A stretch of DNA of 64,000 nucleotides from a virus. The stretch is from positions 24,720 through 88,719 of the IMG/VR virus record IMGVR_UViG_3300006108_000013, one strand, 5' to 3'. The notes under the pieces are model-generated. The model saw nothing but the letters and a program-made list of their open reading frames with translations, searched no databases and had not been told where the DNA came from. Shown in pieces: positions 11,252-58,377 of this stretch. Every line of letters begins with the position of its first letter. The first letter of the stretch is position 1. The translations under genes and the position numbers were made by a program.

Positions 11252-11256
11252 AAATA
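11249..11256 (+). promoter_or_regulatory. Possible late element CATAAATA
   Basis: CATAAATA on the + strand overlaps the start codon of the minus-strand kinase gene and lies 38 nt before the ATG at 11295. It fits the NATAAATA late pattern, but the distance differs from the other sites here, so it is weak. Confidence 0.3.
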
Positions 11257-11294
11257 TATTATAAGGGTAAATTTATAAAAATCAAATAAAATTT

Positions 11295-14180: not shown

Positions 14181-14188
14181 TATAAATA
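14181..14188 (+). promoter_or_regulatory. Late promoter, TATAAATA
   Basis: Perfect TATAAATA ending 6 nt before the ATG at 14195, in the 16-nt gap after the gp5-like gene. Same spacing as the site at 2343-2350. Confidence 0.65.
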
Positions 14189-22429: not shown

Positions 22430-22435
22430 CAAACC

Positions 22436-22466
22436 ATTATAGGTTGCTTCTTATATAAAAGCAACC
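22436..22466 (-). promoter_or_regulatory. Helicase-gene promoter with hairpin
   Basis: TTGCTT (22464-22459), 17-nt spacer, TATAAT (22441-22436) on the minus strand, then 6 nt to the ATG. The region from -35 to the spacer end forms a perfect 8-bp hairpin, arms 22442-22449 and 22459-22466, loop 9 nt. The hairpin may end the upstream transcript but lacks a T run. Confidence 0.55.
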
Positions 22467-22472
22467 CATAAA

Positions 22473-22772
22473 TTACTTATTTCCCCAAATAGTACCACCA
22501 AAAAGATTTCCAATGCCCTTAGTAACTTTATTAGTTTCGGTTGAGGGTCTTTTTGTAAAAGCATTTGGTATATTATGTGGATCTTGTGTCCGATCAAATG
22601 CAACAGGTGCTGGCTGCGGAGCAGGTTCAGGAATCGAAGGGGGCGTAGCTACGGAAGTTTCTATTGCTTGCTCAACTTCTTTTGCTTCATTCTCAACCAA
22701 ATTATACTTTTCCTTAAAAAAAGATAAAAGTTCTTCTTCCTTACCACTCAAAAGTTCAAATAACGTTGTCAT
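22473..22772 (-). CDS. Hypothetical small acidic protein
   Basis: 99 residues. The N-terminal helix 'TLFELLSGKEEELLSFFKEK' is followed by a Pro/Ala linker (TPPSIPEPAPQPAP, about 44-57) and a Gly/Asn-rich end (GIGNLFGGTIWGNK). It lies 9 nt after uvsX and before the helicase promoter. The shape, one helix plus flexible tail, suggests a small binding partner of a replication protein. No family recognised. Confidence 0.6.
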   Translation of the reverse strand: MTTLFELLSGKEEELLSFFKEKYNLVENEAKEVEQAIETSVATPPSIPEPAPQPAPVAFDRTQDPHNIPNAFTKRPSTETNKVTKGIGNLFGGTIWGNK

Positions 22773-22781
22773 ATTGATTAT

Positions 22782-23885
22782 TTAGACACCTTCATTCTTA
22801 AAAGCAAGAGCACTCTGGAGCTTTTTCTCCAACTCTGGAAGGATCTTAAGCCAAACATCCTCATTATCTTTCCAATCCTTGAAGAAACCAAGCGTTTCAC
22901 CGTTAAAAACGTATCTATGACCTGCTTTTTCAAGCACACCATAGCCTTCTGCCATTTCAAGAAGACCAGAATACTTGTTCAAACCAGTTCTAAAGTTCAA
23001 ATACATTTCAATTTCAAGAAATGGCGTAACAAAACGATTTTTTGTTGTCAATGCTCTTAATGTTAAGCCGTTAATACCCTTTGAAAGAAGAGTAGTTTCG
23101 GTATTTGAATCTTTATTCTTACTATCTTCTGCTCTTTCTGCCTTCTTTGCCATCTGAACGATTACAGAAGCCATGTAAAGAGGTCCTGAGCCACCAGCTT
23201 GCTTCTTAATTGCTGTTGGATGAAGCTGAGATGGGTCATCATAGATATGATTAGTAAAAACAACAGGGCAATTTGCCTTTGCTGCTGAATGTGTAATTGC
23301 TCTCATCATTGATTTAAGAGCCTTTGCACGATTACCCATATCAGGCGTATCAGAACCTTCTTGAATCTTCTTTTTTTCCTGTGCAGTGATCAAATTACCC
23401 AGTGAATCAATTGCGAGAAGAACCTTTCCTTGCAATCCCTTCTCAATAACAATATCAAGAAACTTTACAATTTGATTTCTACAATCTTCGGTAACTTCAC
23501 TAGGAACATGTTTGATCTTTGATGTATCGCAACCAAGTCTCTTGGCGGTGTTTTCATCCAATGCACCTTCGGTATCAAAATATGCAATGTGCATACCCTT
23601 TTTATTTTGTGCATTAGCCATAATCTTGTTAACCATTAAGGTTTTGCCGCATGATTCAGGTCCTACAAATCCAGTAAGTCTACCCATTGGGATTCCCCCA
23701 TAAAGAGAACCCGATATAATCGCATTTAGTGCATACGATCCAGTATCAATCCAATCATTTACACTAGATAGACTGTTATCATCAAGAAAAGCAGCTTCTG
23801 GATTTAGATCTGATAATACATTAAATGCATCTTCGATGCTTCCAACATTAACTTCTTCTGTTTCTTCGTTTTTCTTTTTAGCCAT
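22782..23885 (-). CDS. uvsX: RecA-like recombinase, UvsX
   Basis: 367 residues (T4 UvsX: 391). It forms filaments on ssDNA and drives strand exchange and recombination-dependent replication. Walker A is GPESCGKT (75-82), preceded by 'YGGIPMGRLTGFV'. Walker B is KVLLAIDS with D160. An 'ITHSAAKANCPVVFTNHIYD' segment corresponds to the DNA-binding loop 2 and following strand. UvsW, UvsY-like, gp46 and gp47 genes elsewhere in the window complete the T4 recombination set. A sigma70-like promoter with a 7-nt leader precedes it. Confidence 0.93.
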   Translation of the reverse strand: MAKKKNEETEEVNVGSIEDAFNVLSDLNPEAAFLDDNSLSSVNDWIDTGSYALNAIISGSLYGGIPMGRLTGFVGPESCGKTLMVNKIMANAQNKKGMHIAYFDTEGALDENTAKRLGCDTSKIKHVPSEVTEDCRNQIVKFLDIVIEKGLQGKVLLAIDSLGNLITAQEKKKIQEGSDTPDMGNRAKALKSMMRAITHSAAKANCPVVFTNHIYDDPSQLHPTAIKKQAGGSGPLYMASVIVQMAKKAERAEDSKNKDSNTETTLLSKGINGLTLRALTTKNRFVTPFLEIEMYLNFRTGLNKYSGLLEMAEGYGVLEKAGHRYVFNGETLGFFKDWKDNEDVWLKILPELEKKLQSALAFKNEGV

Positions 23886-23892
23886 ATGATAT

Positions 23893-23920
23893 ATAATAAC
23901 AAAAAATCCCAGAAAGTCAA
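23893..23920 (-). promoter_or_regulatory. uvsX promoter, core 7 nt from the ATG
   Basis: Minus strand TTGACT (23920-23915), 16-nt spacer, TATTAT (23898-23893), 7 nt, ATG at 23885. The -35 hexamer falls entirely within the loop of the terminator hairpin at 23902-23938. Confidence 0.65.
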
Positions 23921-23938
23921 AGACAATCTGGGATTTTT
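23902..23938 (-). terminator. Rho-independent-type terminator, symmetric
   Basis: A 12-bp stem with arms 23902-23913 and 23927-23938, core TCCCAGA/TCTGGGA, 13-nt loop. On the minus strand it is followed by a run of six T and lies 24 nt after the stop of the 126-residue gene. It has A/T tracts on both sides, so it could act in both directions. Confidence 0.7.
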
Positions 23939-23961
23939 AGCGAGTTATTTTTTATCGCAGT

Positions 23962-24342
23962 TTACTCGTCAAATAAATTGATTACGCTTTGATTTGTTCC
24001 ACCAGTTGGAGCCTGTGCTGGGGCAGCAAACGTATTGGTCTTATTAAACATCTGGGCATATTGAGCCTGAAGTCTAAAGTCGAGAGCATCGATATCGGTT
24101 GTGCTAACACGATTGACATCGTAGTTTACCGTTACGTCACCCGTCTTGTCTCCGAGGAATTCTCTGAAGAAAAGCGGAAGAAGCTGAACTGACATCTTAC
24201 CCTGATTATCAGCAGGAATGACATGGAGAACAACTGGATTCTTAATTGAGATCTTAGTTGTGTCGGTTGATGTTACAGTCTCACCAAGAATGGTGCGACC
24301 TACGGAATCTAATATTACGGTTAGTGATGTTGTATTTGACAT
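23962..24342 (-). CDS. Conserved hypothetical small beta-rich protein
   Basis: 126 residues. Strand-like segments 'LTVILDSVGRTILGE', 'KISIKNPVVLHVIP' and 'MSVQLLPLFFREFLGDK' are followed by a flexible Ala/Pro/Thr tail ending in LFDE. The early 'DSxGRTIxGE...IxNPxxL' arrangement recalls Sm-like beta barrels, but this is only a visual impression. It is a single-gene unit: own promoter-like core (24349-24376) 6 nt upstream and a strong terminator downstream. That isolation and higher GC suggest separate, perhaps high, expression. Confidence 0.6.
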   Translation of the reverse strand: MSNTTSLTVILDSVGRTILGETVTSTDTTKISIKNPVVLHVIPADNQGKMSVQLLPLFFREFLGDKTGDVTVNYDVNRVSTTDIDALDFRLQAQYAQMFNKTNTFAAPAQAPTGGTNQSVINLFDE

Positions 24343-24348
24343 ATAATA

Positions 24349-24376
24349 AATTTAACACATTTTTTAAGTATTGCAA
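24349..24376 (-). promoter_or_regulatory. Promoter core 6 nt before gene 24342
   Basis: Minus strand TTGCAA (24376-24371), 16-nt spacer, TAAATT (24354-24349), 6 nt, ATG. It is back to back with the + strand late element at 24380-24387. Confidence 0.45.
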
Positions 24377-24379
24377 GTA

Positions 24380-24387
24380 GATAAATA
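24380..24387 (+). promoter_or_regulatory. Late element GATAAATA
   Basis: GATAAATA ends 7 nt before the ATG at 24395 on the + strand and divides this gene from the divergent early-type promoter. Confidence 0.5.
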
Positions 24388-24394
24388 TAAGATA

Positions 24395-24805
24395 ATGAAA
24401 AAATATGAAAAAATTTATAGAGATTTGATTTCTTATAATCCGCCATCGTTTGATAATAAAGAAATAAAAAGTTTTGATGGTGAAAACTACGAATCAAAAA
24501 ATTTTATTGCTTATAAAGTTGAATATAAAATAAAATATACTGATAAAGATAAAATTCACGTATCAGGATATGATTTTTTAACTGAAAAAGACGCTGAAAC
24601 TGAAATGTTTAATTTTTTTAATAAGATTATAAATGATTTACCTGCAAATATAGCAAATAAACATTTACAAGATATCGCTGATCAAGAAAAAAATAAACCG
24701 GAAGAATATCTATCTTATGAAGATGGGTTGAAAGCCTTTGAAAACATTAAAAGAAAATTAAGAGGCGAAAGTTTTAAAGATTTCTTTAATTCAAGACCAT
24801 CCTAA
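24395..24805 (+). CDS. Hypothetical protein, isolated + strand gene
   Basis: 136 residues from the ATG at 24395; a TTG frame start at 24371 lies inside the promoter region and is rejected. It is Lys/Tyr/Asp rich: 'YKVEYKIKYTDKDKIHVSGY' (about 40-59) reads as a beta hairpin, followed by helices ending in 'LRGESFKDFFNSRP'. It is the only + strand gene between 16228 and 28090 and overlaps the convergent thyX by 15 nt. Its GATAAATA element suggests late expression, opposing the early block. Function unknown. Confidence 0.6.
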   Translation: MKKYEKIYRDLISYNPPSFDNKEIKSFDGENYESKNFIAYKVEYKIKYTDKDKIHVSGYDFLTEKDAETEMFNFFNKIINDLPANIANKHLQDIADQEKNKPEEYLSYEDGLKAFENIKRKLRGESFKDFFNSRPS

Positions 24806-25432
24806 TGCTTCTGAAACATTAGGAAATTGATCTTTAAAAATATCTTTAATTGCATATGCAATTTCACGATGTTCTTTTTGAGTATCTTCTTTTGCTCTAA
24901 TATCAATATAGTGAATCCAGCTACGAATAGTACCACTCATATAAATCGTAGTAGAAGTATTAAGAGGTAAAACCATACGAGCACATTCTTTTGCAACGCC
25001 TTGATCAATTAATTCATGATAAAGCTCTTCGCATTTATTTTGCACTAAACATAATTCGTCTCGTAGATTAACTGGAAGTTCTACTATTTCATCACCAACT
25101 TGACGATTTGTTTTACCTTGTAATCTCCACTCAATATCTTCAAGTTCAGTTGCTGTCGAATATCTTTGGGAAAATTCTTGAAAAGAAAAACTACGATGAC
25201 GTAAAATCTGTGCAGCAATTGCACGAGATGTTTTAATTTCTATTGTCATACTTGCCATCTCCATAGGCGACCAGTGTTTGTGCTTGATTAAATAAGCAAG
25301 CAGCTTTGGTGCGGTTTCGGTATTCATCTGATTAGATGGATTAGAAACTCTTGCGCAGTAAGAAATTAAATCTTCTGCTGTCGTTAAGCCTTCTATTTCG
25401 GGTTTAGTTATTGATACTAGTTTTGTTTTCAT
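24791..25432 (-). CDS. thyX: FAD-dependent thymidylate synthase ThyX
   Basis: 213 residues. It converts dUMP to dTMP using methylenetetrahydrofolate, NADPH and FAD. The ThyX signature RHRSFSFQEFSQRY (78-91) fits RHRxxSxxExSxRY, and 'CARMVLPLNTSTTIYMSGT' near residue 150 carries the conserved C-terminal substrate region. Length is normal for the family. The start overlaps the polB stop by 4 nt (ATGA), so polymerase and dTMP supply share one transcript. Phage ThyX often replaces T4-type ThyA. Confidence 0.95.
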   Translation of the reverse strand: MKTKLVSITKPEIEGLTTAEDLISYCARVSNPSNQMNTETAPKLLAYLIKHKHWSPMEMASMTIEIKTSRAIAAQILRHRSFSFQEFSQRYSTATELEDIEWRLQGKTNRQVGDEIVELPVNLRDELCLVQNKCEELYHELIDQGVAKECARMVLPLNTSTTIYMSGTIRSWIHYIDIRAKEDTQKEHREIAYAIKDIFKDQFPNVSEALGWS

Positions 25433-28002
25433 GAAAATAAAGAAATTAAATCGTTATACTCCTCGCAACCAATTTCCGGTGTGGGCCAACCAATAATGTT
25501 AAAGATTCTGGTTACAACAGGCATGACTGTTTTCTCAAACATCATCTTGTAATCGGGTTTAATATAAGCTTGAATTTCTGTCGGCAATTCATCGGCAAAT
25601 GCAAATGCATCATAACCAAATTTATTTTTCTTACAATAAAAAACCTTTATTTTAGACCCAGTTTGGATTGGATGATATTTATTTTCAAGGTTTAACTTCT
25701 TGAGTAGAGTATTAAAATATATAGCAGCCTTAGTATGACCTTGAGTACCCTTGGCAATTTGATCATCTTTAACTTTATCTTGATATTCCTTTAACTTGTT
25801 TACCTTTTTTCTAATTGCAATTGCGTCAACAGGAAGACTACAGAATTGTTCGTATCCATTTTGAAAAAGCTGATTAGCTTTCTTTCTATCTTTAGAGAGA
25901 ATCGCAGATTCAACAATAGATTTGATCAATTCTTTAATTTCTTTTGAAATTTTTGAAGTGGCAACCTCAATTCCTTTATACAAAAATTCATTAGTTGGTA
26001 CACCTTCGCTATCCAAGATATGAAGAATGTAATATTTTTTTGCCTGAAGCAAAGCGGCATCGCATATTTTTTCTCTCTTGAAAAAATATCTTGGATCAAT
26101 TGTCTTTAATTCGATTTTAGCCCACTCATTAATTTTTTCATTAAGGTATTTTCCAATATCTTTAATAGTTTCGGATGCTTCAGGTGTGATTTCGTTATTT
26201 TTCCCCAAAATGATACCCATCTTGTCAAATAATTTTCTAAAACTGAAGTATACGCTATCTGTATCGGAATAAACACAAATATCATGAAGATCTCCATCAA
26301 ATCCCTTACTAACTGCATACTCATGAACTATTCTTGCTCCGTTTTTAACGACTGCTTGTCCTGTTAACGTAACACTTTCTGCATGTTCGATATCAAAAAG
26401 TGGAGAATAGATGTTAGAAAAGACCCCATAAATAGAATTAAGAAGAGTTTTATACACGTTTTGAAGTGTATAATTGTCATTAGCTTCTTCCTCAAGAATT
26501 CTCTTTTCGTTTTCATCCTTTGTCTTAGCTAATTTCTTTTCTGCTTCCAACATTTTATTCTTTGCTGCAATTCTTTCGTTGTAAAGTTTATCAATCAACT
26601 TTGGAACAACGCCTTTTACTTTTTGTGTGTATAAAATATTTGCCTTTGTAATTGAAAGTTGTTGTTCGGTGATAAATTTTTTAAAATTATCAGCTGTAAA
26701 TGACATTTTTTTGTCGTTTGAAAACATTACTTCGAACTTTCCATCTTCAAACTTTGAAATTTTACCAATCTTTGTCTCTGGTGAGATATTTAAAGTAATA
26801 ATTGTATTTGGATAAAGACTATTTGCATCATATGTGACTAGATCGTCGTATAAGCCAGGCACTGGTTCGTAAACATAGCCACCAGCGAAGGATTTTTTCT
26901 CTCTTTCGTCTTTAAATGTTGGAATTATATAGCCATCTCTCATTGCTTGGTGCGCAACTGCACCAGTAATGACGGAAACCTTTGCCAGTGCCTTTGTAAA
27001 CGGTACAAATCCCCTATAAGAAAGGTTGCGAATGAGTCTAAGATACTTTAATTTTTCCTCCAGCTTGATTAAAATACGAACGTCCTGAATGTTATAGTCA
27101 ACAAACTTCATCCAATCCTCATCAGCAAGGCGAGAAAGCGAATAACTACCAACTGCAATTTTCCCTTCACCTAATTCATATTCGCCAATGTAATTTAAAC
27201 CATAGCTTTCACGATCACCCATTGAGAATGTCTTATAAACTTCCATGTAGTCCAAAATACTAATACCGTGAATATACCAACGATCAATTGCTTGACCTAA
27301 TTTGTTAACGGAAACCTTTTCCCTGAATTGAATTCTATTAACAGGTGATAATTCCTTTGGTTTACTCTCGTCTTCCCAAATTTTCGCAATTCTATTAATA
27401 ATATATGGAATATCATAGTTATCAATGTTCCAACCAGTGACAATATCAGGATAATCCTTTTTCCAAAACTTAAGAAATTGAGTCAGAAGATCTTTTTCCG
27501 AATAACACTTGATATATTTTACATTTTCATCAGTTGTTGCGTATTTATTACAACCAAATGTGTAATATATTTCACTTAAAGAATCATAAATTGTAATAAG
27601 ATTGATTGGATCATTTGCATCGGATGCTTTCGAGAAACCTGTACCATCCGAATAAGTCTCAATATCAATATAAAAGATTTTTAATGGTTGTTTTCCATAA
27701 TCTTCTTTGTCTACATCGTTCTTAAAGTTATCAAGAAGAAATTGTTGGTCAGTTCCGAGATTGTAAAACAATCTATCAATAGGGGTTTCTTCTATAAACT
27801 TATTTCTAGCTCTTTGATTGTTAAATTTAACCTTTTTAAGGGAAGAATTAAAGATAGATTTGCCATCGCAACCATTTTGCGATTCGATATATAAATATGG
27901 AGAATATGAGCATAGAACCTTTGTTCTATTGCCGTCTTTATCCCAAGTAAAGAGGTGAATTACCTCATTATTATTGTCATAGTATATTCCTCTATAGCTC
28001 AT
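25429..28002 (-). CDS. DNA polymerase, family B, gp43-like
   Basis: 857 residues (T4 gp43: 898). The 3'-5' exonuclease is intact: Exo I FYIDIETYSDG with D113/E115, Exo II WNIDNYDIPY with D194, Exo III YNIQDVRI with D307. Polymerase motifs: A YDANSLYPNT (391-400), B KTLLNSIYG (518-526), C YSDTDSVYF (578-586). The C-terminus carries 'KIKVFYCKKN' and a short end that in T4 contacts the clamp. No intein or split is seen, although an HNH endonuclease gene lies just upstream on the other strand. A TTGACA-N17-TATTAT promoter ends 8 nt before the ATG. Confidence 0.96.
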   Translation of the reverse strand: MSYRGIYYDNNNEVIHLFTWDKDGNRTKVLCSYSPYLYIESQNGCDGKSIFNSSLKKVKFNNQRARNKFIEETPIDRLFYNLGTDQQFLLDNFKNDVDKEDYGKQPLKIFYIDIETYSDGTGFSKASDANDPINLITIYDSLSEIYYTFGCNKYATTDENVKYIKCYSEKDLLTQFLKFWKKDYPDIVTGWNIDNYDIPYIINRIAKIWEDESKPKELSPVNRIQFREKVSVNKLGQAIDRWYIHGISILDYMEVYKTFSMGDRESYGLNYIGEYELGEGKIAVGSYSLSRLADEDWMKFVDYNIQDVRILIKLEEKLKYLRLIRNLSYRGFVPFTKALAKVSVITGAVAHQAMRDGYIIPTFKDEREKKSFAGGYVYEPVPGLYDDLVTYDANSLYPNTIITLNISPETKIGKISKFEDGKFEVMFSNDKKMSFTADNFKKFITEQQLSITKANILYTQKVKGVVPKLIDKLYNERIAAKNKMLEAEKKLAKTKDENEKRILEEEANDNYTLQNVYKTLLNSIYGVFSNIYSPLFDIEHAESVTLTGQAVVKNGARIVHEYAVSKGFDGDLHDICVYSDTDSVYFSFRKLFDKMGIILGKNNEITPEASETIKDIGKYLNEKINEWAKIELKTIDPRYFFKREKICDAALLQAKKYYILHILDSEGVPTNEFLYKGIEVATSKISKEIKELIKSIVESAILSKDRKKANQLFQNGYEQFCSLPVDAIAIRKKVNKLKEYQDKVKDDQIAKGTQGHTKAAIYFNTLLKKLNLENKYHPIQTGSKIKVFYCKKNKFGYDAFAFADELPTEIQAYIKPDYKMMFEKTVMPVVTRIFNIIGWPTPEIGCEEYNDLISLFS

Positions 28003-28010
28003 TTACTGTG

Positions 28011-28039
28011 ATAATATCATTTGTAACTTTTTTTGTCAA
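28011..28039 (-). promoter_or_regulatory. polB promoter, TTGACA-N17-TATTAT
   Basis: Perfect -35 TTGACA (28039-28034), 17-nt spacer, -10 TATTAT (28016-28011), then 8 nt to the ATG at 28002. It is the best example of the short-leader promoter type in this window. Confidence 0.75.
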
Positions 28040-30194: not shown

Positions 30195-30223
30195 ATGTAA
30201 ATTTATAAAATTATGTTAATATA

Positions 30224-32032
30224 TCAACTGACTATTTTAGTGACACCGTTTTCTTTTTCTAGGAGAAGAACATTATCAATTCTTGCCATATCTGATGATT
30301 TATGACTTACAATATATACTGATTCATCATACTTTACAACTCTTTCTTTTAGCAAACCAATAATTTTGTCGGTTCCTTGTTGGTCGAGTGCAGAATCAAT
30401 CATTTCATCGTAGATATTCAAGGAATATGAGGTTCCATTATGTGTTCTCAATAAGTCTTGAAACATAAATAAGATTGCAGTGTCAATTCTTTTTCTTTCT
30501 CCACCACTAAAATTAAAATATGAACACTCTTTACCTGTTTCATTGGTAATAGTCTCTTCAAATAGCTCGTTAAACTCGCATTTGCATGGAGTATCAAGCT
30601 CCTTCAAATAATAATTTAACTTATTATTAAGAAGTTTAAGCATTTTCTTAACGATATATGTCTTAACGCCTTCTTCTGAAACAATAAACTTAACTGAATC
30701 AAGAATTGCCATTTGTGTTTTTACATCAATTAATTCTTTTTCAGTTTTTTCAATTTCTTTCTTTGTGTTTTCAATGTTTGAATCAATTGATGGATCATCC
30801 TTCTTGGTATCCTCAATCCATTTCAAACAATCTTTAATGTTTCCTTCGCAATTTAAAATTTTCTGATTATTAATTTTAATGTCATTTTTCTTTTGATCTA
30901 ATTCTCTAATCTTTTTATTGATTTTATCAATTCCTTCTTCGACTTCTTCGATTTTATCATCCCAAGTAATTTTTTCAGCATTAACATTAAATGCTTCTTT
31001 CATAAGAGTTGATGTTTTGTCATCAATATCTTTTAATAATTGCTTAACGGCTTCAAGATCTTCCTCGCAATAGTCTCTATTACAAGTTGGACACGTATTA
31101 CCTTTGTCTATAATTTTTTGTTTCTCCTTTGCTAACTGTTTTATCTCTGCTGATATGTCAGAACTTTTTGTTATTAGATCAGATCTCGTATTAATAAATG
31201 ATTTAACGCCAGTTTTTAAAATGTTAACCTTGTTTTCTTGCTCCTGAATTTGTTTAATAATATCTTCTAATGAAGGAAGATCATTATTCTGTAAATCTTC
31301 TATAAGTTTTTCATTATCTCTAATACGAGAATTAAAAGCATCAATCTTTTCTTGCTTTTTTGTTTCTGCATTAGTCTTTTGATCTTCAAATGTGGTTAAG
31401 TTTCTTTGAAGATTAATAAAATTGTTACTCAATAAATCATTTTCTTTCTTATAATCATTATAATCACCCCTAGCCTTGAGTAACATTTCACTAAAAATGT
31501 TAAGATTAAGAATTCCTTCGATGAACTTTCTTTTATCGGTCTTCTTTTGCGCCATAAAAGGCACTGTATTGTTTGCAGACATAATAACTGCATTCTGGAA
31601 GACTTCTTCTGTTGCGCCAAGTATCTCTTTAATATATGCATTAGTCTCTGGCATCGTAGAAAGAGTCATATCAACATCTCTTTGTTGATTGTGAGCAGTG
31701 ATAGTAACCTTACTTGGTTCTAAAGATCTTTCTATTGTGTATGGTGTTACATGATTCTCGGTAATTTCTTCAAAATTCAATGAAACCTTACAATCTTTCT
31801 TGCTAAGATTATGAATTATCTTGTCATTTTTAATATCACGAATGGTATTACCAAATAAACACCAGTAAATTGCTTCAAGAATTGAACTTTTACCTATTCC
31901 ATTCTTACCTCCCTTATCTTTGTTCTCCCCTGTAATAAGATTTATCCCTTTTTGAAAAGGAATAATCAAAGGTTCTTTACCAACAGATAAAAAATTTTGT
32001 ATTTCTACGTAGTTGAATTTAATTCTTTTCAT
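30224..32032 (-). CDS. Recombination endonuclease ATPase subunit, gp46 (SbcC/Rad50-like)
   Basis: 602 residues (T4 gp46: 560). It pairs with gp47 to resect DNA ends for UvsX. Walker A is GKNGIGKS (42-49), the zinc hook CPTC (C314, C317) sits at the apex of two long Lys/Glu coiled coils, the ABC signature is FSGGERKR (about 507-514) and Walker B is 'LNIYDEMID' with the acidic pair. Its partner gp47 is about 16.7 kb away at 48697, with the glycan island between. A candidate promoter and hairpin precede it at 32038-32072. Confidence 0.92.
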   Translation of the reverse strand: MKRIKFNYVEIQNFLSVGKEPLIIPFQKGINLITGENKDKGGKNGIGKSSILEAIYWCLFGNTIRDIKNDKIIHNLSKKDCKVSLNFEEITENHVTPYTIERSLEPSKVTITAHNQQRDVDMTLSTMPETNAYIKEILGATEEVFQNAVIMSANNTVPFMAQKKTDKRKFIEGILNLNIFSEMLLKARGDYNDYKKENDLLSNNFINLQRNLTTFEDQKTNAETKKQEKIDAFNSRIRDNEKLIEDLQNNDLPSLEDIIKQIQEQENKVNILKTGVKSFINTRSDLITKSSDISAEIKQLAKEKQKIIDKGNTCPTCNRDYCEEDLEAVKQLLKDIDDKTSTLMKEAFNVNAEKITWDDKIEEVEEGIDKINKKIRELDQKKNDIKINNQKILNCEGNIKDCLKWIEDTKKDDPSIDSNIENTKKEIEKTEKELIDVKTQMAILDSVKFIVSEEGVKTYIVKKMLKLLNNKLNYYLKELDTPCKCEFNELFEETITNETGKECSYFNFSGGERKRIDTAILFMFQDLLRTHNGTSYSLNIYDEMIDSALDQQGTDKIIGLLKERVVKYDESVYIVSHKSSDMARIDNVLLLEKENGVTKIVS

Positions 32033-32037
32033 TTATA

Positions 32038-32072
32038 CCCTATTAGTATAGGGCGTTTTAAAATTAAATCAA
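32038..32072 (-). promoter_or_regulatory. gp46 promoter with start-proximal hairpin
   Basis: Minus strand TTGATT (32072-32067), 16-nt spacer, TATACT (32050-32045), 12 nt to the ATG. A 6-bp hairpin CCCTAT/ATAGGG (32043-32038 and 32053-32048) spans the -10 and ends 5 nt before the start; its AGGG is also the only Shine-Dalgarno-like sequence. It separates gp46 expression from the upstream sugar operon. Confidence 0.45.
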
Positions 32073-32975
32073 CTTTAAAATCCAATCTCTAACATTTATG
32101 GTTGGATTATAATTTAAATGTTTTTTTGCCTCTGAAATATCTGCTAATGTATGCTCGGCTTCACCTTCTCTTGCTGGTATGTGAGTTATATCATCACTTA
32201 TTAGCTTTGCTATATCATTTATAGAAATATTTTCACCTGTTCCGATATTATATAAATTTCTACCATCGTGCGTTGGTGTTTCGGCTGCTAAAATATTAAC
32301 ATTTGCTATATCATGAACATGGACAAAATCTCTGCGTTGTTCACCTGTTCCAACAATGGTTAACGATTCATTATTATTTTTTTGGCGTTTAAAAATACCT
32401 ATAACTGGAGCATATTGACCAGTTGTTGGGCTTCTTTCCCCAAAAACATTAAAATATCTAAATACAACAGTTTTTAAACCATACATCTTTGTATACATTT
32501 CAACCATTTGTTCTCCTGAATATTTTGTAGCAGAATATGGGTTCAAACAATCAATTGGTTCATTTTCATCAGTGGGAAGTTTACATAAATTACCATAAAC
32601 AGAAGAAGTGGAAGAATATATAAACTTTTCAACATTATAAAGCCTACTATATTGCAACATTTTGGTTGTACCGACTGCATTTATTTGTGTCGCTCTTACT
32701 GGGTTAAGAATTGCAGGACCTATTCTAGATTCTGCTGCTAAATGAAAAACATATTTTGCATTTTCAAAAATTTCTTTATGCGGAATGGAATCATCGTTAA
32801 TATCAAACTTAAAATATTTTGCAGAATCATTAAAATAAAATTCTTCATTTGATTCGGCTGATAAATCATCGATTACGTATACATCATAATTTTTTTCTAT
32901 AAGTTTATCAACTAAATGACTACCAATAAACCCACAACCACCTGTTACTACTGCTTTATTTTTTAAATTGCTCAT
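32064..32975 (-). CDS. NAD-dependent sugar epimerase, extended SDR
   Basis: 303 residues. Rossmann motif TGGCGFIG (11-18), active-site SSTSSVYG (121-128) and catalytic Y147/K151 in NPYSATKYSG, then 'VFRYFNVFGERSP' and 'RRDFVHVHDIANV', the GalE-like layout. It would epimerise or dehydrate a nucleotide-linked sugar. As the last gene of the gmhA-talC-GHMP kinase-HAD/nucleotidyltransferase operon it may act on the heptose nucleotide made there, but UDP-hexose 4-epimerase is equally compatible. It overlaps the gene before by 20 nt. Confidence 0.85.
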   Translation of the reverse strand: MSNLKNKAVVTGGCGFIGSHLVDKLIEKNYDVYVIDDLSAESNEEFYFNDSAKYFKFDINDDSIPHKEIFENAKYVFHLAAESRIGPAILNPVRATQINAVGTTKMLQYSRLYNVEKFIYSSTSSVYGNLCKLPTDENEPIDCLNPYSATKYSGEQMVEMYTKMYGLKTVVFRYFNVFGERSPTTGQYAPVIGIFKRQKNNNESLTIVGTGEQRRDFVHVHDIANVNILAAETPTHDGRNLYNIGTGENISINDIAKLISDDITHIPAREGEAEHTLADISEAKKHLNYNPTINVRDWILKLI

Positions 32976-33687
32976 GTATTAATGTTTTAAATTTTGTTGT
33001 GCTCCATCCGTGATCCCTATTTATGAAATATTCAGTAATATTCAAATCTTTACCTGTATAATCTTTGTCCTTGTAATCATCTCCCATGATTCTAACATGA
33101 AATATGAAATTGGATAAAATCTCATAGAGATCTTTTTCGGTTTCATATGTAATAATTTCATCAATGTATTTGATAGATGATAAAATCTCCTTTCTTTCGT
33201 CTACTGTATGAATTGGTTTTAATTTTTCTGGTCTTTCTTTCGACGCATCAACATGAAGTAATACCGTAAGATGATCACATTGTTGTTTTGCTTCTTTGAA
33301 AGCACAAATATAACCAAAGTGAACAACATCAAAAGAACCAATTATTACTCCTTTTTTTTGATTTATCGGTTTAAAAAATGATTCACTGTAAATTGCTTTA
33401 TCATCAACAAATAAATCATACGGAGGCTTACCTAAAATTAATTCGTGATATTTTAATCCCCAATTATTAATTTGATTCTTTGTCAGGCTATAATATTTGT
33501 CTAAAACCAATGCTAAATTTCCTTTAAATTCCGTTGTACCCCTAGCAGTATATATTTTAATATAATATCCTTTGTCATAAAGATCATTTACTATGTTAAT
33601 TCGATCTGTAATAGGAATTGCATTGTGATAACCTTTTTTTTCAGTTATACATAAAGTATTATCTAAATCAAAACAATAAATTTGCAT
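32956..33687 (-). CDS. Bifunctional HAD phosphatase / sugar-phosphate nucleotidyltransferase
   Basis: 243 residues, two domains. Residues 1-105 are HAD-like: DLDNT (7-11) with both catalytic Asp and 'KIYTARG' as motif II, like capsule phosphatases. Residues 112-243 are a cytidylyltransferase-like fold: GSFDVVHFGY (117-126), where the classical HxGH reads HxGY, then 'DERKEILSSIKYIDEI' and 'RDHGWSTTKF'. By analogy with GmhB plus the HldE C-domain it could remove the 7-phosphate of a heptose bisphosphate and add a nucleotide. Neighbouring heptose-type genes support this; exact substrate and nucleotide are inferred. It shares one base with the GHMP kinase gene. Confidence 0.75.
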   Translation of the reverse strand: MQIYCFDLDNTLCITEKKGYHNAIPITDRINIVNDLYDKGYYIKIYTARGTTEFKGNLALVLDKYYSLTKNQINNWGLKYHELILGKPPYDLFVDDKAIYSESFFKPINQKKGVIIGSFDVVHFGYICAFKEAKQQCDHLTVLLHVDASKERPEKLKPIHTVDERKEILSSIKYIDEIITYETEKDLYEILSNFIFHVRIMGDDYKDKDYTGKDLNITEYFINRDHGWSTTKFKTLIHEQFKK

Positions 33688-34670
33688 TAGTTTGTAAAAT
33701 TACCTAAAATCATTGACCCATGATTATCCATTCCAAAATGTAATCTTGGGAAATTGTTATTTAACATAAATTCATCCAGTTTATCTTGGTTATTTGGACA
33801 ATATAATAGTAGAAATCCGCCTCCACCTGCCCCAATTATCTTGCCACCTAACACACCAAAATATTTTTTAGTGTGTTCATAAATCTCATCAACGATAGGG
33901 ACAGAAATTTTATTAGACAATTGTTTTTTAAGTTGCCAATATTCGTCCATTAAAATACCATAACTTTCAAAATCGCCATCAAGTAAATAAGTTATTGTTT
34001 TTAAGCCATGCTCTTTAACAATTTTTAATATGTCTTCGGAATTACCCTTCAGTTTCTGTTGATCAGAAAGAACTTCGGAAGCATCACGTTTAATGTTTAG
34101 ATAATAAACACATAAATTAGATATAAATTTATTTTTTAAACTTTCGTTTATCTTTAAATCGCTTACGTTTACATTACCATTCATTCCAATATTAAGAATT
34201 TTAATTCCACCGTATGCTGCAATATACTGATCTTGTTTTCCTACTGGTTCTTTCAATCTGTTAATTTCTATGTCACATGCCTCTTCTGCGAGTATATGAG
34301 GCTCTCTATTAAGCTTTTTATATTCTCTTATGCAATTCAACGTTCCAACTAAAAAACTACCAGACGAACCTAGTCCAGTATTAGAAGGAAGATCCGCACA
34401 GGAATTTATTTCGCAACTATTATCGATCCCATGAATCAAAAGTGCTTCTTTTGCTCTATGATTTTTTAATTCCGAAGCATGGTTAACAATTTCAATTTGG
34501 GAATAACGAAGTTTTAATTGCTTTTCAAAAAAATCTGGTTTGTAAGTCAAGTAAATATACTTGTTAATAGCCATAGAAACGACTAGTCCGCCATGTTTTG
34601 AGTAAAAACTGGGTAGGTCTGTTCCACCGCCACCTAAAGTAATTCTTAAAGGAGTTCTGCTAATGATCAT
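33687..34670 (-). CDS. hddA: GHMP sugar kinase, HddA-like (heptose 7-phosphate kinase)
   Basis: 327 residues. Substrate strand TPLRITLGGGGTDLP (6-20), ATP loop DLPSNTGLGSSGSF (93-106) and third motif IGAGGGGFLLLY (about 284-295) define a GHMP kinase. The N-terminal GGGGTDLPSFY and the gmhA neighbour place it with D-glycero-alpha-D-manno-heptose 7-phosphate kinases, which give the 1,7-bisphosphate. Start overlaps the transaldolase stop by 4 nt (ATGA). A related fucose or hexose kinase cannot be excluded. Confidence 0.8.
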   Translation of the reverse strand: MIISRTPLRITLGGGGTDLPSFYSKHGGLVVSMAINKYIYLTYKPDFFEKQLKLRYSQIEIVNHASELKNHRAKEALLIHGIDNSCEINSCADLPSNTGLGSSGSFLVGTLNCIREYKKLNREPHILAEEACDIEINRLKEPVGKQDQYIAAYGGIKILNIGMNGNVNVSDLKINESLKNKFISNLCVYYLNIKRDASEVLSDQQKLKGNSEDILKIVKEHGLKTITYLLDGDFESYGILMDEYWQLKKQLSNKISVPIVDEIYEHTKKYFGVLGGKIIGAGGGGFLLLYCPNNQDKLDEFMLNNNFPRLHFGMDNHGSMILGNFTN

Positions 34671-35374
34671 ATGTTCAAATTTGATAATTTTGCATCATCA
34701 AAGAACATTTTAACAGTTTCTAAAGAAAAGTCACTTAAATTTTTATCTTTAAGCTTTAATTTTGGTAAAATATCAGGAGTTACTGTAATAATATCGCAAC
34801 CAGAACGTTCTGCTTCGTATACATTATACACTGAACGTGTACTCGCCCACAATGTTTCTATTTTTGACTTCCTATCTTTTAAAAATTGCGTGGTTGCAGA
34901 TGTTAATTCGATTGGATTTCTACCAGTATCAGAAATTCTACCAGCAAATATTGAAATTATAAGAGGATGAAAAGTTCCTATAAGGTTTTTGATGATGCTT
35001 CCAACCTGTACACCATCAAAAACAGCCGTAACGTTAATTTTTATACCTTTATCATTCATTTTGGTAATCAAATCGACAGTAGAAACACCTTTAGTGTTGG
35101 TTATGGGAACTTTCACGTAAATATTATCACCATATTCTGCAATTTTTTGGATTTGATATTCCATTTCATCCAATTCATCGGCAAAAATCTCAAAGGAAAA
35201 AGGTAAATCTGAAATCTTACTAGTTATTTCTTTTATAAATGGAACATATTCGGTAATACCAGCCTTTTTCATGAGGCTAGGATTAGTTGTAAAACCTGTT
35301 ACTGTTTTATTATTTTCATATATGTCAAATATCTCTTTGACATTTGATGTATCAGCGAATATTTTAATGCTCAT
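34667..35374 (-). CDS. talC: Transaldolase-like protein, TalC type
   Basis: 235 residues from the ATG at 35374, one base after the gmhA stop; a longer frame from 35398 overlaps gmhA and adds non-homologous residues. Family signs: IFADTSNVKEI at the N-terminus, GFTTNPSLM (27-35), Schiff-base Lys88 in IYVKVPIT, 'INVTAVFDGVQ' and 'IFAGRISDTG'. Short transaldolases make sedoheptulose 7-phosphate, the substrate of GmhA, so the pair can feed heptose synthesis from host fructose 6-phosphate. Cyanophages carry talC for another purpose (carbon flux). No phosphosugar-independent role is visible. Confidence 0.85.
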   Translation of the reverse strand: MSIKIFADTSNVKEIFDIYENNKTVTGFTTNPSLMKKAGITEYVPFIKEITSKISDLPFSFEIFADELDEMEYQIQKIAEYGDNIYVKVPITNTKGVSTVDLITKMNDKGIKINVTAVFDGVQVGSIIKNLIGTFHPLIISIFAGRISDTGRNPIELTSATTQFLKDRKSKIETLWASTRSVYNVYEAERSGCDIITVTPDILPKLKLKDKNLSDFSLETVKMFFDDAKLSNLNI

Positions 35375-35375
35375 A

Positions 35376-35942
35376 TTATTTTGTAAAGTAATTAACAACC
35401 AAATGTAAAATTATACCTTGCCATTCTTCTGCATGGGCAGTGACTCTTTCGGGTTTTATAGGCGGAATTAGGATACAAGCATTTGAAAGCTGTTTAGCAA
35501 CACCACCATCTTTACTCACAACAGAAAGTATATAGCTTTTTGTTTTCTTTGCTAATTTCATTGCGTTAACAAGATTTTTAGATGTTGTTTCAGAACCACC
35601 GCCAACGGAAAAAATAATAATTGCATCCTTTGATGAAAGTTTACTACCCTTTAACCAATTTGCATAAGAATCTTCCCAAGATTCATCGTTTATTCTTGCG
35701 GTAAGTTCAGAAACATTATCAGTAACTGCGTAAGTTTCTATTCCAAGAATCTTTCTAAAATCATTTACGGCATGGCTGGCATTTGCAGCACTTCCACCAA
35801 CACCTAAAACAAAAAGTCTACCTTTTGTAGATTTAATTTTTTTAATTATTTCAATAAATTTAACAATTGAATCCGTTTCAATGTTATCTATAATTGATAT
35901 TATCTCACCAAAATATGTTGTAATGTAATTTTTAATTTTCAT
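35376..35942 (-). CDS. gmhA: Sedoheptulose 7-phosphate isomerase, GmhA-like
   Basis: 188 residues, a normal GmhA length. SIS fold with GVGGSAANASHAVNDF (48-63), 'DESWEDSYANWL' and 'IIIFSVGGGSETTSKN' (about 112-127), and a C-terminal 'AEEWQGIILHLVV' that carries the active-site Glu/His pair. It converts sedoheptulose 7-phosphate to D-glycero-D-manno-heptose 7-phosphate. It heads the five-gene heptose-type operon and is followed by talC and the GHMP kinase. The start overlaps the frameshifted methyltransferase by 11 nt. Confidence 0.85.
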   Translation of the reverse strand: MKIKNYITTYFGEIISIIDNIETDSIVKFIEIIKKIKSTKGRLFVLGVGGSAANASHAVNDFRKILGIETYAVTDNVSELTARINDESWEDSYANWLKGSKLSSKDAIIIFSVGGGSETTSKNLVNAMKLAKKTKSYILSVVSKDGGVAKQLSNACILIPPIKPERVTAHAEEWQGIILHLVVNYFTK

Positions 35943-36402
35943 ATGTAAAAAGTGTATCTACGTCTGATATATTTTCCAAAATTTTGTAATTCTTAGAAGT
36001 CATATAAGAAGATATCATATTATACCTATATTCGTTACCAGTTTCAATTAAAAAATATTTAGGTTTATATTCATTTATGTCAAATCCATTTAAAACTTCT
36101 ATTTCATATCCTTCGACATCTAAACTAAAAAAATCTATATTAGATATGTTATGTTTCTTTAAAATAGAATTTAAAGTTGTACAAGGTACATTTATAATCG
36201 AACTGTTTTCGTTTTTAAAATCCAAACTGTTTTTTAAATCATCATCAAAATAATTTTCTTTACGAGTAATCTGTCCACATAAAGATGAGGAAATATCACT
36301 ATAAGAAAAATCACCACTTATAGTTTTATCTTCGTAATTATCGCTAACTAATGCATAATTTTCCACTATACAATTTGGTCTATTTTTTTTTACATTCTTC
36401 AT
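35932..36402 (-). CDS. FkbM-type methyltransferase, C-terminal part (frameshifted)
   Basis: 156 residues. It holds the C-terminal half of an FkbM SAM-dependent O-methyltransferase: 'NVPCTTLNSILKKHNI', 'IDFFSLDVEGYEIEVLNGFD' (about 95-114, the signature S-x-D-V/I-E-G) and 'YFLIETGNEYRY'. The frame is separated from the N-terminal half (36380-36571) by one base in an A9 tract (36391-36383 on the minus strand). Removing one A joins them through 'EECKKNRPNCIV'. The local ATG at 36402 may allow separate translation, but this piece lacks the SAM-binding loop. Confidence 0.75.
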   Translation of the reverse strand: MKNVKKNRPNCIVENYALVSDNYEDKTISGDFSYSDISSSLCGQITRKENYFDDDLKNSLDFKNENSSIINVPCTTLNSILKKHNISNIDFFSLDVEGYEIEVLNGFDINEYKPKYFLIETGNEYRYNMISSYMTSKNYKILENISDVDTLFTYEN

Positions 36403-36571
36403 ATTTTATAAAAGAAGGTTCAATTAGTAATCCAGACCAACCATATTTTTGTTCGTACATTAATGTGTTAGATTGATTAACTCCATCATTAGCACCAGCT
36501 TCTATAAAGAATCCATTATTAAAATTTAAATATTTTAATAATTTTTCGTCTAAATTATTTAAAGAATACAT
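36380..36571 (-). CDS. FkbM-type methyltransferase, N-terminal part (frameshifted)
   Basis: 63 residues with the SAM-binding start of FkbM enzymes: 'NGFFIEAGANDGVNQSNT' (19-36) and 'YGWSGLLIEPS', ending in CKKK and a TAG that arises directly after nine A. The rest continues in the next frame at 35932-36402. The combined protein would be about 212 residues, close to intact family members. Options are a sequencing homopolymer error, a real inactivating mutation, slippage-mediated expression, or phase variation. Confidence 0.75.
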   Translation of the reverse strand: MYSLNNLDEKLLKYLNFNNGFFIEAGANDGVNQSNTLMYEQKYGWSGLLIEPSFIKYEECKKK

Positions 36572-36572
36572 T

Positions 36573-37292
36573 TTACCCCTTTAAAAAAAGCTCATCGATA
36601 TCATCATATTCCATTAAATCTACTAATTTAGATTTTTTTTCTGGGTGTGTAAAATTATCATTGTATTGATAAGGAGGAGTAAAATCCATTTCAAAATTTT
36701 CTTCCCATAAAAAGGCAATTTCCGTTTGTAAATCTCCGAATTTATTATGATACGCCTGACTAGAAGCAAAATTAAAATTTACATGCTCCATTAATCCCAT
36801 TTTAGGGTATCCACAAAATACTTTATTTTTAATAGTGTAAATCCACCTATGGTGATGATACCCCAAATAATTTCCTTCCCATCTCTTCGTATCCATGTAT
36901 TTAGTTGGAACTGCAATCAGTCCTGCGTCCGCTATTTTGAATAAATTTAAAATAACCTGAATAGGTGCATTAAGATCTTCTAATGTATGAGTGCATACCA
37001 CGAAATCAAACTTACCATTTTTCTCGACGTATTTAAAAATAGGAGTCCACGTATCATTTAATTCCATATCTCCACCAAATTTAATAACATTGTCATTTTT
37101 TAATTTTTCTGGTTGAAAATCTAAAATATGAGTTGTGTATTCTGGTATTCTTAATTTGGCAGCACCACCAATATCTATTAATGTAATATCTCTCCCCTTT
37201 TTTTGTTTTAATTCATTTAAATAGTCATAAACTTCTTTATCCTTGGTGTGTTCATGTTCACCATTCCAACTGGATTTTATATATTTTATCAT
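36573..37292 (-). CDS. SAM-dependent methyltransferase, class I
   Basis: 239 residues. 'ITLIDIGGAAKLRIPEY' (about 36-52) is the SAM-binding loop, followed by 'THILDFQPEK', and 'FDFVVCTHTLEDLNAP' (about 95-110) corresponds to the motif before the substrate helix. The C-terminal half has 'YHHHRWIYTI' and many aromatics. It sits in the glycan island between FkbM and TylF-type enzymes with 1-nt and 3-nt gaps, so a sugar or glycan O-methylation role is likely. The acceptor is unknown. Confidence 0.7.
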   Translation of the reverse strand: MIKYIKSSWNGEHEHTKDKEVYDYLNELKQKKGRDITLIDIGGAAKLRIPEYTTHILDFQPEKLKNDNVIKFGGDMELNDTWTPIFKYVEKNGKFDFVVCTHTLEDLNAPIQVILNLFKIADAGLIAVPTKYMDTKRWEGNYLGYHHHRWIYTIKNKVFCGYPKMGLMEHVNFNFASSQAYHNKFGDLQTEIAFLWEENFEMDFTPPYQYNDNFTHPEKKSKLVDLMEYDDIDELFLKG

Positions 37293-37295
37293 ATT

Positions 37296-37970
37296 TTATA
37301 TTAATTTAAATAAACCTTGACTGTAGCTTTCTTTTTGATGTAGCAATGGCTGATAATCAAAACCAGTATCCAATAAAAATTCAGCAAAAGCTTTAATCTC
37401 ATGATTTCGGTAATCATCATAATCATTGATTTCATCAAACAATAATACCGAGCCTTTTTTGAATCTAGGAGTCAATTCTGTTAAAACTGTTTTAGCGGAT
37501 GAATATAAGTCACCATCAATATGAACGAAAGCAACATCACCTTCAAACTTTTTTAAGAAAAGTGGTAAAGAATCCTCGAAAAGACCCTTTATAAGTTTTA
37601 CGTTTTCGGGCCATGGCTTCCAATTTTGTGGAAGGCTACTATCAAACATAGAATGATTTTCGCCAACAATATAACCTGGTGGTACATTACCACCTAAACT
37701 ATAACAATTTTTTGGATTATTTGAATCCCAATACTCAGGTAATCCTTCAAAGCAATCAAAGCCATATATTTCCTTTGGTGCTTTTCTGGAAAATTGTTCA
37801 ATACTTCTTCCAGTAAATACACCAAATTCTAACCATAATCCATCAAGTTCAACGTATTCGGTGCATTTTAAATGAAACGTTTCATGATAATCATGAATGC
37901 AATCCGTTACAATTGCTTCGGTTCTGAGTCTATGTTCTATTTCGTCTATTTTTTCTTCTACTGTTTTCAT
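37296..37970 (-). CDS. TylF/macrocin-type O-methyltransferase
   Basis: 224 residues. 'GLWLEFGVFTGRSIEQFS' (about 44-61) is the SAM loop; 'YGFDCFEGLPEYW', 'VKLIKGLFEDSLPLFL', 'VAFVHIDGDLYSSAKTVL' (metal-binding HIDGD) and 'GSVLLFDEINDYD' are the hallmarks of the TylF family, which methylates sugar hydroxyls. Length fits the family. It is tightly packed between a methyltransferase and a GT4 gene. Together the three methyltransferases could cap or decorate the glycan built by the adjacent transferases. Confidence 0.88.
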   Translation of the reverse strand: MKTVEEKIDEIEHRLRTEAIVTDCIHDYHETFHLKCTEYVELDGLWLEFGVFTGRSIEQFSRKAPKEIYGFDCFEGLPEYWDSNNPKNCYSLGGNVPPGYIVGENHSMFDSSLPQNWKPWPENVKLIKGLFEDSLPLFLKKFEGDVAFVHIDGDLYSSAKTVLTELTPRFKKGSVLLFDEINDYDDYRNHEIKAFAEFLLDTGFDYQPLLHQKESYSQGLFKLI

Positions 37971-37974
37971 ATTT

Positions 37975-39066
37975 TTATTTAGAGAGGTTATCGTATAAGT
38001 CTATAATAGATTGTTCAACTTTTCTATAATCATATTTTTGATAATATCTAGTTAGAGTGTTTTCGCTTTTTTCGACATAGTAATCTTTATTATCTCTTAA
38101 CAATGATAATTCTGATGCATATTCTTCAACTGAATATGCCACCTTTCCACATCCTTCTATTTGCTCTAAATGTCCCATATTTAACGCAGGATGACTTACA
38201 ACAGGTTTACCGTGATACATTGCTTCTATTATTGAAGCAGAACAAACCTCGCCGTCTGATCTTGCATGAGCAAAAACATCAATTCCTTCTAAATAATTGT
38301 GAATGTTTTCAACAGAACTTGTAAATTTTACAAAATAAACATTTTTAAGCTGTAATTCTCTAGCTAAATTTATATGTTGTTCACTTCCACCCAGAATAAT
38401 AAAACAAGTATTGTCATTCTGCACTAATGAATATGCTTGCAAAGAAACAGGTGAAAATATATCACCTCTGGTTGCTTGGTGAAAGCCGTATACAAATTTA
38501 TCCTCACTTATACCTAATAATTCTCTAATATTTGATTTCTTTTTTTCTGGTACTTTTACAATAGATGGGATTATTTCGGCTTTTGATATATTACCACCAT
38601 TAGCTCCCCATTTATCAGCTTGCCATTTGCACAATAAAATAGCTTTCTTAATGTTTGGTTTATCTTCTCCTGTAAAACTATGAATGCTATCAATGATTGA
38701 ACATTGGTTAATTAAATTAAATGGATATTCGGGATAACCACATCTACCAGTTTGCACAAAATCATAATTGGATTCTTTAAAAATATCCCAAAAATTAGTA
38801 CCAACCCATTCATACGGTTCAACGTTACCGATTTTATGATCAACATGAACTTGGATTGTTTTTATACCATTGTTTTCTACGAATTCTTTTCTTTTGAGGT
38901 CGTTATCAGGATGTTCAAAACTAGAATACCAAAATGGTGCGGCATTAGTGTAAAAATAATCAACTTGATAACGATCTTTAGGTAATAAACAAGCTATAGT
39001 CTGGAGATATTTTTCAATTCCACCGGAAGCTAATCCTGCAAATTTAATAAATGCTATTTTTTTCAT
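37975..39066 (-). CDS. Glycosyltransferase family 4-like
   Basis: 363 residues, GT-B fold. The N-terminus 'GLASGGIEKYLQTIACLLP' (11-29) is the typical acceptor-side glycine loop. The C-terminal domain has 'CFIILGGSEQH', 'GIDVFAHARSDGEVCSASII' and 'EAMYHGKPVVSHP', the E-x7-E nucleotide-sugar motif. It is probably a retaining transferase using a nucleotide sugar in the cytoplasm. It shares one base with the next gene of the island. Confidence 0.88.
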   Translation of the reverse strand: MKKIAFIKFAGLASGGIEKYLQTIACLLPKDRYQVDYFYTNAAPFWYSSFEHPDNDLKRKEFVENNGIKTIQVHVDHKIGNVEPYEWVGTNFWDIFKESNYDFVQTGRCGYPEYPFNLINQCSIIDSIHSFTGEDKPNIKKAILLCKWQADKWGANGGNISKAEIIPSIVKVPEKKKSNIRELLGISEDKFVYGFHQATRGDIFSPVSLQAYSLVQNDNTCFIILGGSEQHINLARELQLKNVYFVKFTSSVENIHNYLEGIDVFAHARSDGEVCSASIIEAMYHGKPVVSHPALNMGHLEQIEGCGKVAYSVEEYASELSLLRDNKDYYVEKSENTLTRYYQKYDYRKVEQSIIDLYDNLSK

Positions 39067-39779
39067 TATCTTTGTCTTTGTCCCGAATCTAATGTTGATG
39101 TATATAATCCGGTTCTAGAACCTTGTGTCGCTATAGATGGATACCACCAATAGGTTTTAGCATCAAATTTATATAACTGATAAGCAATCTCCCAATCGGA
39201 AACTAATTGGAATGGAACAGCCGATTCATATATTTTAGATGCTATTTGCGGTTTTAAAAGATAAGCTTCTGCACAATTTGTTGCAGGATGATTCATTAAA
39301 AATGAATTCTCGCTTACCTTTTTACTTTCCATAAGTTTATGACTTTGAAAATTGACACCACATCCTTCGCCTAAGAATATCGCATCCCAATCATTTGGTG
39401 TTTCTTGAAAATATTTCTTATAAAAACTGTTAAAATTACTATTAAACAGTACATCATCTTCTAAAATAAGACCAAAATTTTCACATTCAATTGAAAGTTT
39501 TTTAATTGCAATCAAGTGTTTGATTGTACATGATATTTCAGGCATATTTAATACTCTGAATTTATGAATATTAGAATCCCATAATGGTTTAATTTTATTT
39601 GCAAATTTTTCTTCATCCGCAAGATAAAATTGATTTAAAACATCTACATTTAAATCTTCTTTATCGTATTCTGTTATAAATTCATAAGGAATTTTACAAT
39701 TTTCTAAAAAAGGAATTAGATTGGAGTATCTATCATTTAATTTAGTGTAATGAACTATGTAAATTTTATCAGGTTTCAT
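39066..39779 (-). CDS. Glycosyltransferase family 25-like
   Basis: 237 residues. 'IYIVHYTKLNDRYSNLIPFL' (6-25) and the metal-binding 'FGLILEDDVLF' (about 101-111), then 'WDAIFLGEGCG' and 'CAEAYLLKPQIA', are the GT25 pattern of LPS galactosyl/glucosyltransferases. The C-terminus ends 'SIATQGSRTGLY', matching the family's final loop. It is one of two GT25-like genes in the island (the other at 44010). Start overlaps the GT10 gene by 4 nt. Confidence 0.85.
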   Translation of the reverse strand: MKPDKIYIVHYTKLNDRYSNLIPFLENCKIPYEFITEYDKEDLNVDVLNQFYLADEEKFANKIKPLWDSNIHKFRVLNMPEISCTIKHLIAIKKLSIECENFGLILEDDVLFNSNFNSFYKKYFQETPNDWDAIFLGEGCGVNFQSHKLMESKKVSENSFLMNHPATNCAEAYLLKPQIASKIYESAVPFQLVSDWEIAYQLYKFDAKTYWWYPSIATQGSRTGLYTSTLDSGQRQR

Positions 39780-41709: not shown

Positions 41710-41712
41710 GCT

Positions 41713-49755: not shown

Positions 49756-49786
49756 TAAGAAGATAATAACAGGTAATTTAAATTTT

Positions 49787-53996: not shown

Positions 53997-54147
53997 AATA
54001 GGATGTCGTCCGTTTTAATACCTTTAAGTTCTTTTAATTTAACTATATTATTAATTATAATACTTAAAGTACTTTAATATACTATAATACTTTTAATATT
54101 TCTTGGCAAAATTTGACTTTTGCACTTTTTGCGTTAAATTTTTCTAT
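53997..54147 (+). promoter_or_regulatory. AT-rich intergenic region with palindrome and promoter
   Basis: The longest non-coding stretch seen. It holds a perfect 14-bp palindrome TTAAAGTACTTTAA (54064-54077), several TAATACTT/TAATACCT-like repeats around it, and a promoter core TTGACT (54113-54118), 16-nt spacer, TAAATT (54135-54140), 7 nt before the ATG at 54148. No tRNA fold seen. It may control the lysis cassette. Confidence 0.5.
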
Positions 54148-56824: not shown

Positions 56825-56831
56825 AGTATTA

Positions 56832-58371: not shown

Positions 58372-58377
58372 TAGGCG

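Follow-up and report, generated by a model that had tools for sequence, protein, structure and literature searches.

In the uncultured T4-like phages analyzed here, many transcription units probably yield mRNAs with no leader or almost none (0 to 4 nt), and initiation makes no use of Shine-Dalgarno (SD) sequences. The evidence consists of the spacing between promoters and start codons, its excess over shuffled sequences, its conservation in relatives, the absence of SD sequences, the covariation of a terminator and the presence of a gp55-like gene. The window, as we call the whole 64,000-nucleotide stretch of DNA that was analyzed, covers positions 24720-88719 of a virus record 88.7 kb long (IMG/VR IMGVR_UViG_3300006108_000013) and has a GC content of 31.6%. 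PHROG matches identified T4-type replication genes in it, namely polB, UvsX, a DnaB-like helicase, a gp32-type SSB, thymidylate synthase, primase and UvsY, so that the replication and recombination core of the T4 superfamily (polB, uvsX, uvsY, gp41-like helicase and gp32) is present. In the phage collection, the best matches among isolates come from T4-like phages of Pelagibacter and cyanobacteria, and because they reach only about 30-33% identity in UvsX and PolB, the clade has no close isolate there. Besides the window we analyzed separate stretches of other phages and of relatives, the latter being about 80 uncultured T4-like IMG/VR loci retrieved by UvsX.

The preliminary description had listed seven sigma70-like cores lying directly before start codons, and all seven are present with the spacings given there. 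On the minus strand, the polB promoter (28003-28039) consists of TTGACA (28039-28034), N17, TATTAT (28016-28011) and 8 nt before ATG 28002; the uvsX promoter (23886-23920) of TTGACT (23920-23915), N16, TATTAT (23898-23893) and 7 nt before ATG 23885; the promoter of the gp41/DnaB-like helicase (22430-22464) of TTGCTT (22464-22459), N17, TATAAT (22441-22436) and 6 nt before ATG 22429; and that of a 126-aa gene (24343-24376) of TTGCAA (24376-24371), N16, TAAATT (24354-24349) and 6 nt before ATG 24342. The plus strand carries TTGACT-N16-TAAATT-7 nt before ATG 54148 (54113-54147), TTGACT-N16-TAAGAT-7 nt before ATG 56832 (56797-56831) and TTGACA-N16-TAAAGT-6 nt before ATG 58378 (58344-58377), the last at the gene matched by PHROG as primase. 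Under strict scoring two of the seven turn out weak: the -35 of the helicase promoter, TTGCTT, matches at 3/6 positions and the 24342 core at 8/12. Three further cores were found on the minus strand: TTGAAA, N16, TATTAT and 7 nt at a metallophosphoesterase-domain gene (49756-49790, ATG 49755), TTGATT, N16, TATAAT and 6 nt at a dNMP-kinase-like gene (11252-11285, ATG 11251), and TTGATA-N16-TAAATT-5 nt at a glycosyltransferase-like gene (30195-30227, ATG 30194), where the core overlaps a late-type box, TATAAATT, also 5 nt from the ATG. An inverted repeat of the ATAGGTTGC..GCAACCTAT type (22436-22468, minus strand) covers the helicase -35 and extends to the -10; it may act as an operator or terminate the preceding gene. 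The orthologous upstream regions of three relatives (L006, L007 and L019) retain the repeat along with the TTGC and a -10 resembling TATAAT.

Start codons were called mechanically, as the first ATG of each ORF, and those with an upstream gap of at least 20 nt were compared with 1000 dinucleotide shuffles. This start-anchored motif search, which had been proposed together with the preliminary description, gave a clear excess: a sigma70 core ended 5-9 nt before 9 of 23 starts, against a shuffle mean of 0.93 and a maximum of 5 in 1000. With cores of at least 9/12 the counts at this distance were 8 versus 0.41, and with at least 10/12, 5 versus 0.09. Thus a -10 element stands one initiation distance from the start codon more often than chance allows. 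Only 1.4% of the non-start ATGs in the window had a core of at least 9/12, the distance bins from 10 nt upward held 0-2 cores each, and no excess was seen at 10-60 nt (4 versus 3.4). Genes with short gaps showed a weaker excess (5/58 versus 1.3). Anchoring to the start codon matters, because an unanchored scan for sigma70-like cores in a 20 kb stretch gave 98 against 99.8 in shuffles.

The same arrangement was found in the relatives. After removal of similar upstream regions, and with 100 shuffles, a core of at least 9/12 lay at 5-9 nt in 76 of 219 starts, where 3.8 were expected (shuffle maximum 10). The distance histogram has a sharp peak at 6-9 nt, is highest at 6-7 nt and has dropped off by 12 nt. 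Unsupervised motif discovery, supplied with no promoter information, returned TTGA(C/T)(A/T), the first T of which sits near -35 relative to the ATG. In 118 promoters, a set chosen with the sigma70 matcher, most first Ts fall between -38 and -34, and the -10 has the consensus TATAAT with A/T as the next base. Among orthologous upstream regions, a core of at least 9/12 at 5-10 nt is kept in 21 of 38 distinct polB sequences, and the core is kept in 13/31 for ssb and 13/40 for the 24342 gene (at least 8/12 in 25 of 40 distinct). For the 30194 gene, 29 distinct upstream regions yielded the sigma70 core in 10 and the late box in 11. At polB, ssb, 24342 and 30194 the core was retained while the remaining intergenic DNA diverged. 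The Bacteroidetes-type promoter, TTG / TAnnTTTG (PMC9723704), was also considered and rejected: its -7 box TAnnTTTG was not seen, the -10 of the 118 promoters being TATAAT (a weak test, as these were sigma70-selected) and the unsupervised motif being TTGAC.

The cores had been described as early promoters. The presence of the sigma70 class at the starts was borne out, but the label early covers too little, as T4-late boxes sit at the same distance. Boxes of the form TATAAATA, with at most one mismatch, lie 5-7 nt before 11 window starts where 2.8 were expected; further regions of the relatives gave 34/198 versus 6.2 and 19/247 versus 4.7 expected. Exact copies are found on the plus strand at 2343-2350 and 14181-14188, each 6 nt upstream of an ATG (2357 and 14195, respectively). 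In T4 the late TATA box precedes the transcription start site by about one helical turn (PMC2988020), and by this geometry boxes 5-7 nt from the ATG predict transcription starts at or near the AUG. A profile built from the gp55 proteins of T4, HTVC008M and Mosig matched G000:74554-74913 (window 49835-50194) with an E value of 4e-22, within a 221-aa gp55-like late sigma gene (49787-50452, minus strand) whose product also shows a weak Sigma70_r2 match. Such a sigma was matched in 12 of 12 records searched, and the phage thus has the combination proper to the T4 superfamily, a late sigma of gp55 type and late promoters of the form TATAAATA. As judged from the sequences, the close-set promoters serve replication genes and virion-type genes alike, in the window phage and in dozens of relatives.

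It had also been noted that few starts carry an SD sequence, and the counts agree: 0/24 window starts with free upstream DNA and 3/58 in the other window count, where chance would give 0.5 and 3.9. In the relatives, SD sequences precede 3 of 225 starts with free upstream DNA (4.4 by chance), and a slight excess, confined to the relatives, was seen at operon-internal genes (24/221 versus 12.4). The absence of SD sequences that belongs to a leaderless architecture is therefore found here, and the leadered, SD-led early genes of T4, which are a property of T4 and not part of the superfamily definition, are not. Because operon-internal genes cannot be leaderless and yet lack SD sequences, another SD-free route of initiation must exist. 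Genes of glycosyltransferase, epimerase and sugar-kinase-like type form a block (32064-49755, minus strand) that contains many ATGA overlaps and is nearly devoid of SD sequences, a layout that suggests translational coupling.

The uvsX promoter is combined with an intrinsic-terminator hairpin and U-tract (23904-23936, minus strand). The -35 lies within the hairpin loop and 3' arm, and the U-tract forms part of the spacer between -35 and -10. The hairpin RNA has a folding energy of -17.4 kcal/mol (z -6.5), and across 28 aligned relatives the TTGAC is invariant while the hairpin covaries, with a score of 0.412 against 0.149 in shuffled and at most 0.139 in slid alignments and 57 cells changed on both sides. 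In a minority of relatives the terminator lies directly upstream of the -35 and does not overlap it. Since the terminator is embedded in the promoter, RNA coming from upstream should stop before the uvsX ATG, and UvsX should therefore be made from RNA that starts at the ATG. The composite terminator-promoter was rejected as a general rule, being present in only 9 of 112 distinct promoters, all of them with the uvsX signature.

If the A of the ATG were the +1 nucleotide, a pyrimidine would be expected at -1. Of 118 promoter-bearing starts, 92 have one; for starts inside operons the figure is 207 of 413 (p 5e-8). Together with the shuffles, the non-start ATGs, the approximately 80 relatives, the T4 and cyanophage controls and the uvsX terminator, this bias supports the earlier proposal that the transcripts would be leaderless or nearly so. 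From the position of the promoters we infer the leaderless state, and with it the actual 5' ends, the sigma use, the early or late timing and the leaderless translation. Most likely, both promoter classes would make mRNAs with leaders of 0-4 nt that are translated without SD sequences. In the mechanism we propose, the host's RNA polymerase carrying the housekeeping sigma would recognize the TTGAC-N16-18-TATAAT promoters and the gp55-type late sigma the TATAAATA boxes. As about 6-8 nt, one initiation distance, separate the -10 element of both classes from the start codon that follows, transcription would begin at, or a few bases before, the A of the AUG, and translation would be initiated there by 70S ribosomes, on the 5' AUG. 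At uvsX, where the promoter is built into the preceding gene's terminator, leadered read-through RNA would also be halted. The sigma spacing and the ribosomal tolerance of leaderless mRNA are assumptions about the host, and at the thresholds used about 60% of the pooled starts that have 20 nt or more of free DNA upstream belong to neither promoter class.

Four other explanations were weighed. AT-rich intergenic DNA is rich in sigma70-like cores, from which those near start codons might simply have been picked by the reader, and the unanchored scan indeed gave no genome-level excess. Yet chance of this kind is extremely improbable given the start-anchored excess (9 versus 0.93 in the window, 76 versus 3.8 in the relatives), the lack of excess at other distances, the conservation of cores in orthologs and the unsupervised TTGAC motif. 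Promoters could also have been pushed against the start codon by neutral packing into short gaps, with an ordinary mode of translation, since many gaps measure 20-45 nt, about the size of a core promoter. We regard this as quite unlikely: even where gaps reach 60-99 nt, the 5-9 nt bin holds 20 of 31 cores, whereas T4 genes with gaps have their cores farther off and retain SD sequences. Packing may account for the origin of the arrangement, but its leaderless consequence remains.

The mechanical calling of starts leaves room for the idea that the real start codons lie downstream and that the mRNAs have ordinary leaders. This has a very low probability, because in 12 of 13 relatives the UvsX proteins can be aligned from their very first residue (MAKxK or similar), a second in-frame ATG occurs within 50 codons in only 47 of 122 such genes, and SD sequences before that next ATG (5/47) show no excess over control codons (10/117). 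Finally, the cores might be real but limited to one stage of infection, the main translated mRNAs being leadered and coming from promoters farther upstream. T4 genes often have several promoters of different classes, and some starts here, 30194 for example, bear both a sigma70 core and a late box; still, this reading seems unlikely in view of the covarying intrinsic terminator directly upstream of and inside the uvsX promoter and of the absence of any further core excess at 10-60 nt in the window (4 versus 3.4).

The preferred reading of leaderless transcripts has parallels in known systems. In the Deinococcus-Thermus "-10 region adjacent to ORF" expression (PMC12340547) and the bacterial TANNNT leaderless genes (PMC3160421), the -10 likewise precedes the start codon by one initiation distance, which yields mRNAs with no 5' UTR. 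Those are cellular genomes, whereas here the arrangement is found in a T4-like phage, the TTGAC -35 is usually recognizable and SD sequences are absent throughout. The two promoter classes, sigma70-type and TATAAATA, and the gp55-like late sigma are shared with T4 (PMC2988020), but the T4 stretch had no core at 5-9 nt, its late boxes were not enriched at 4-8 nt, and SD sequences preceded 20 of 32 starts (62%) with free upstream DNA and 17/48 in a second set. The Syn9 stretch also differed: it had no cores at 5-9 nt, and 15% of the starts that have free DNA upstream carried an SD sequence. The cultured Pelagibacter phage HTVC008M (L086) carries exact TATAAATA boxes 5 nt before start codons (6267, 7549, 18929, 31119 and 49747), which suggests leaderless late mRNAs, and Mosig EXVC030M has sigma70 cores 6-9 nt before the ATG in 7 of 50 starts against 0.5 expected, though some of its -10 calls (TAGGAT) could themselves be SD-like. 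Both differ from the window phage in that about 55% of the starts with free DNA upstream retain an SD sequence, which makes their leaderless layout only partial. Transcripts of the Thermus phages phiYS40 and P23-45, and the cI mRNA of lambda, have been reported as leaderless; these phages are unrelated to the window phage. When P23-45 was used as a positive control, the strict sigma70-core test detected only 1 of 31 starts.

We searched for the host by aligning uvsX to genome contigs and obtained no match. Alignment of bS21 from three relatives gave weak matches, the best to a Verrucomicrobia MAG (46%) and otherwise many to cyanobacteria, in a list biased by the search patterns; the Verrucomicrobia MAG contained no uvsX relative. 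For these reasons no host is claimed. The bS21 gene is encoded by 3 of 16 relatives (L087, L088 and L089) and also by the Pelagibacter phages HTVC008M and Mosig, and a link between phage bS21 and SD-independent initiation is possible.

T4 is the textbook phage for mRNAs that have leaders, are driven by SD sequences and undergo regulation in translation. Expression from leaderless mRNA is an established mechanism, of which a T4-type phage relying on it would be a novel form. The open-access literature, which leaves most subscription papers outside its scope, yielded no report of leaderless expression in the T4-like phage family. We give about even chances to the broader proposal that SD initiation has been dropped across an entire branch of uncultured T4-like phages in favor of leaderless mRNAs made with both host sigma and gp55, that promoters embedded in terminators insulate key units, and that the phage depends on, or imposes, 70S/leaderless initiation in its host. 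Such phages could be annotated by a simple rule: look for a TTGAC around position -35 relative to the ATG, or for a TATAAATA box at a distance of 5-7 nt. If leaderless expression holds for a major environmental branch of T4 phages, gene callers that expect SD sequences will misplace starts, regulation through leaders would be impossible on those genes, and the host would probably be a bacterium dominated by leaderless or SD-free initiation.
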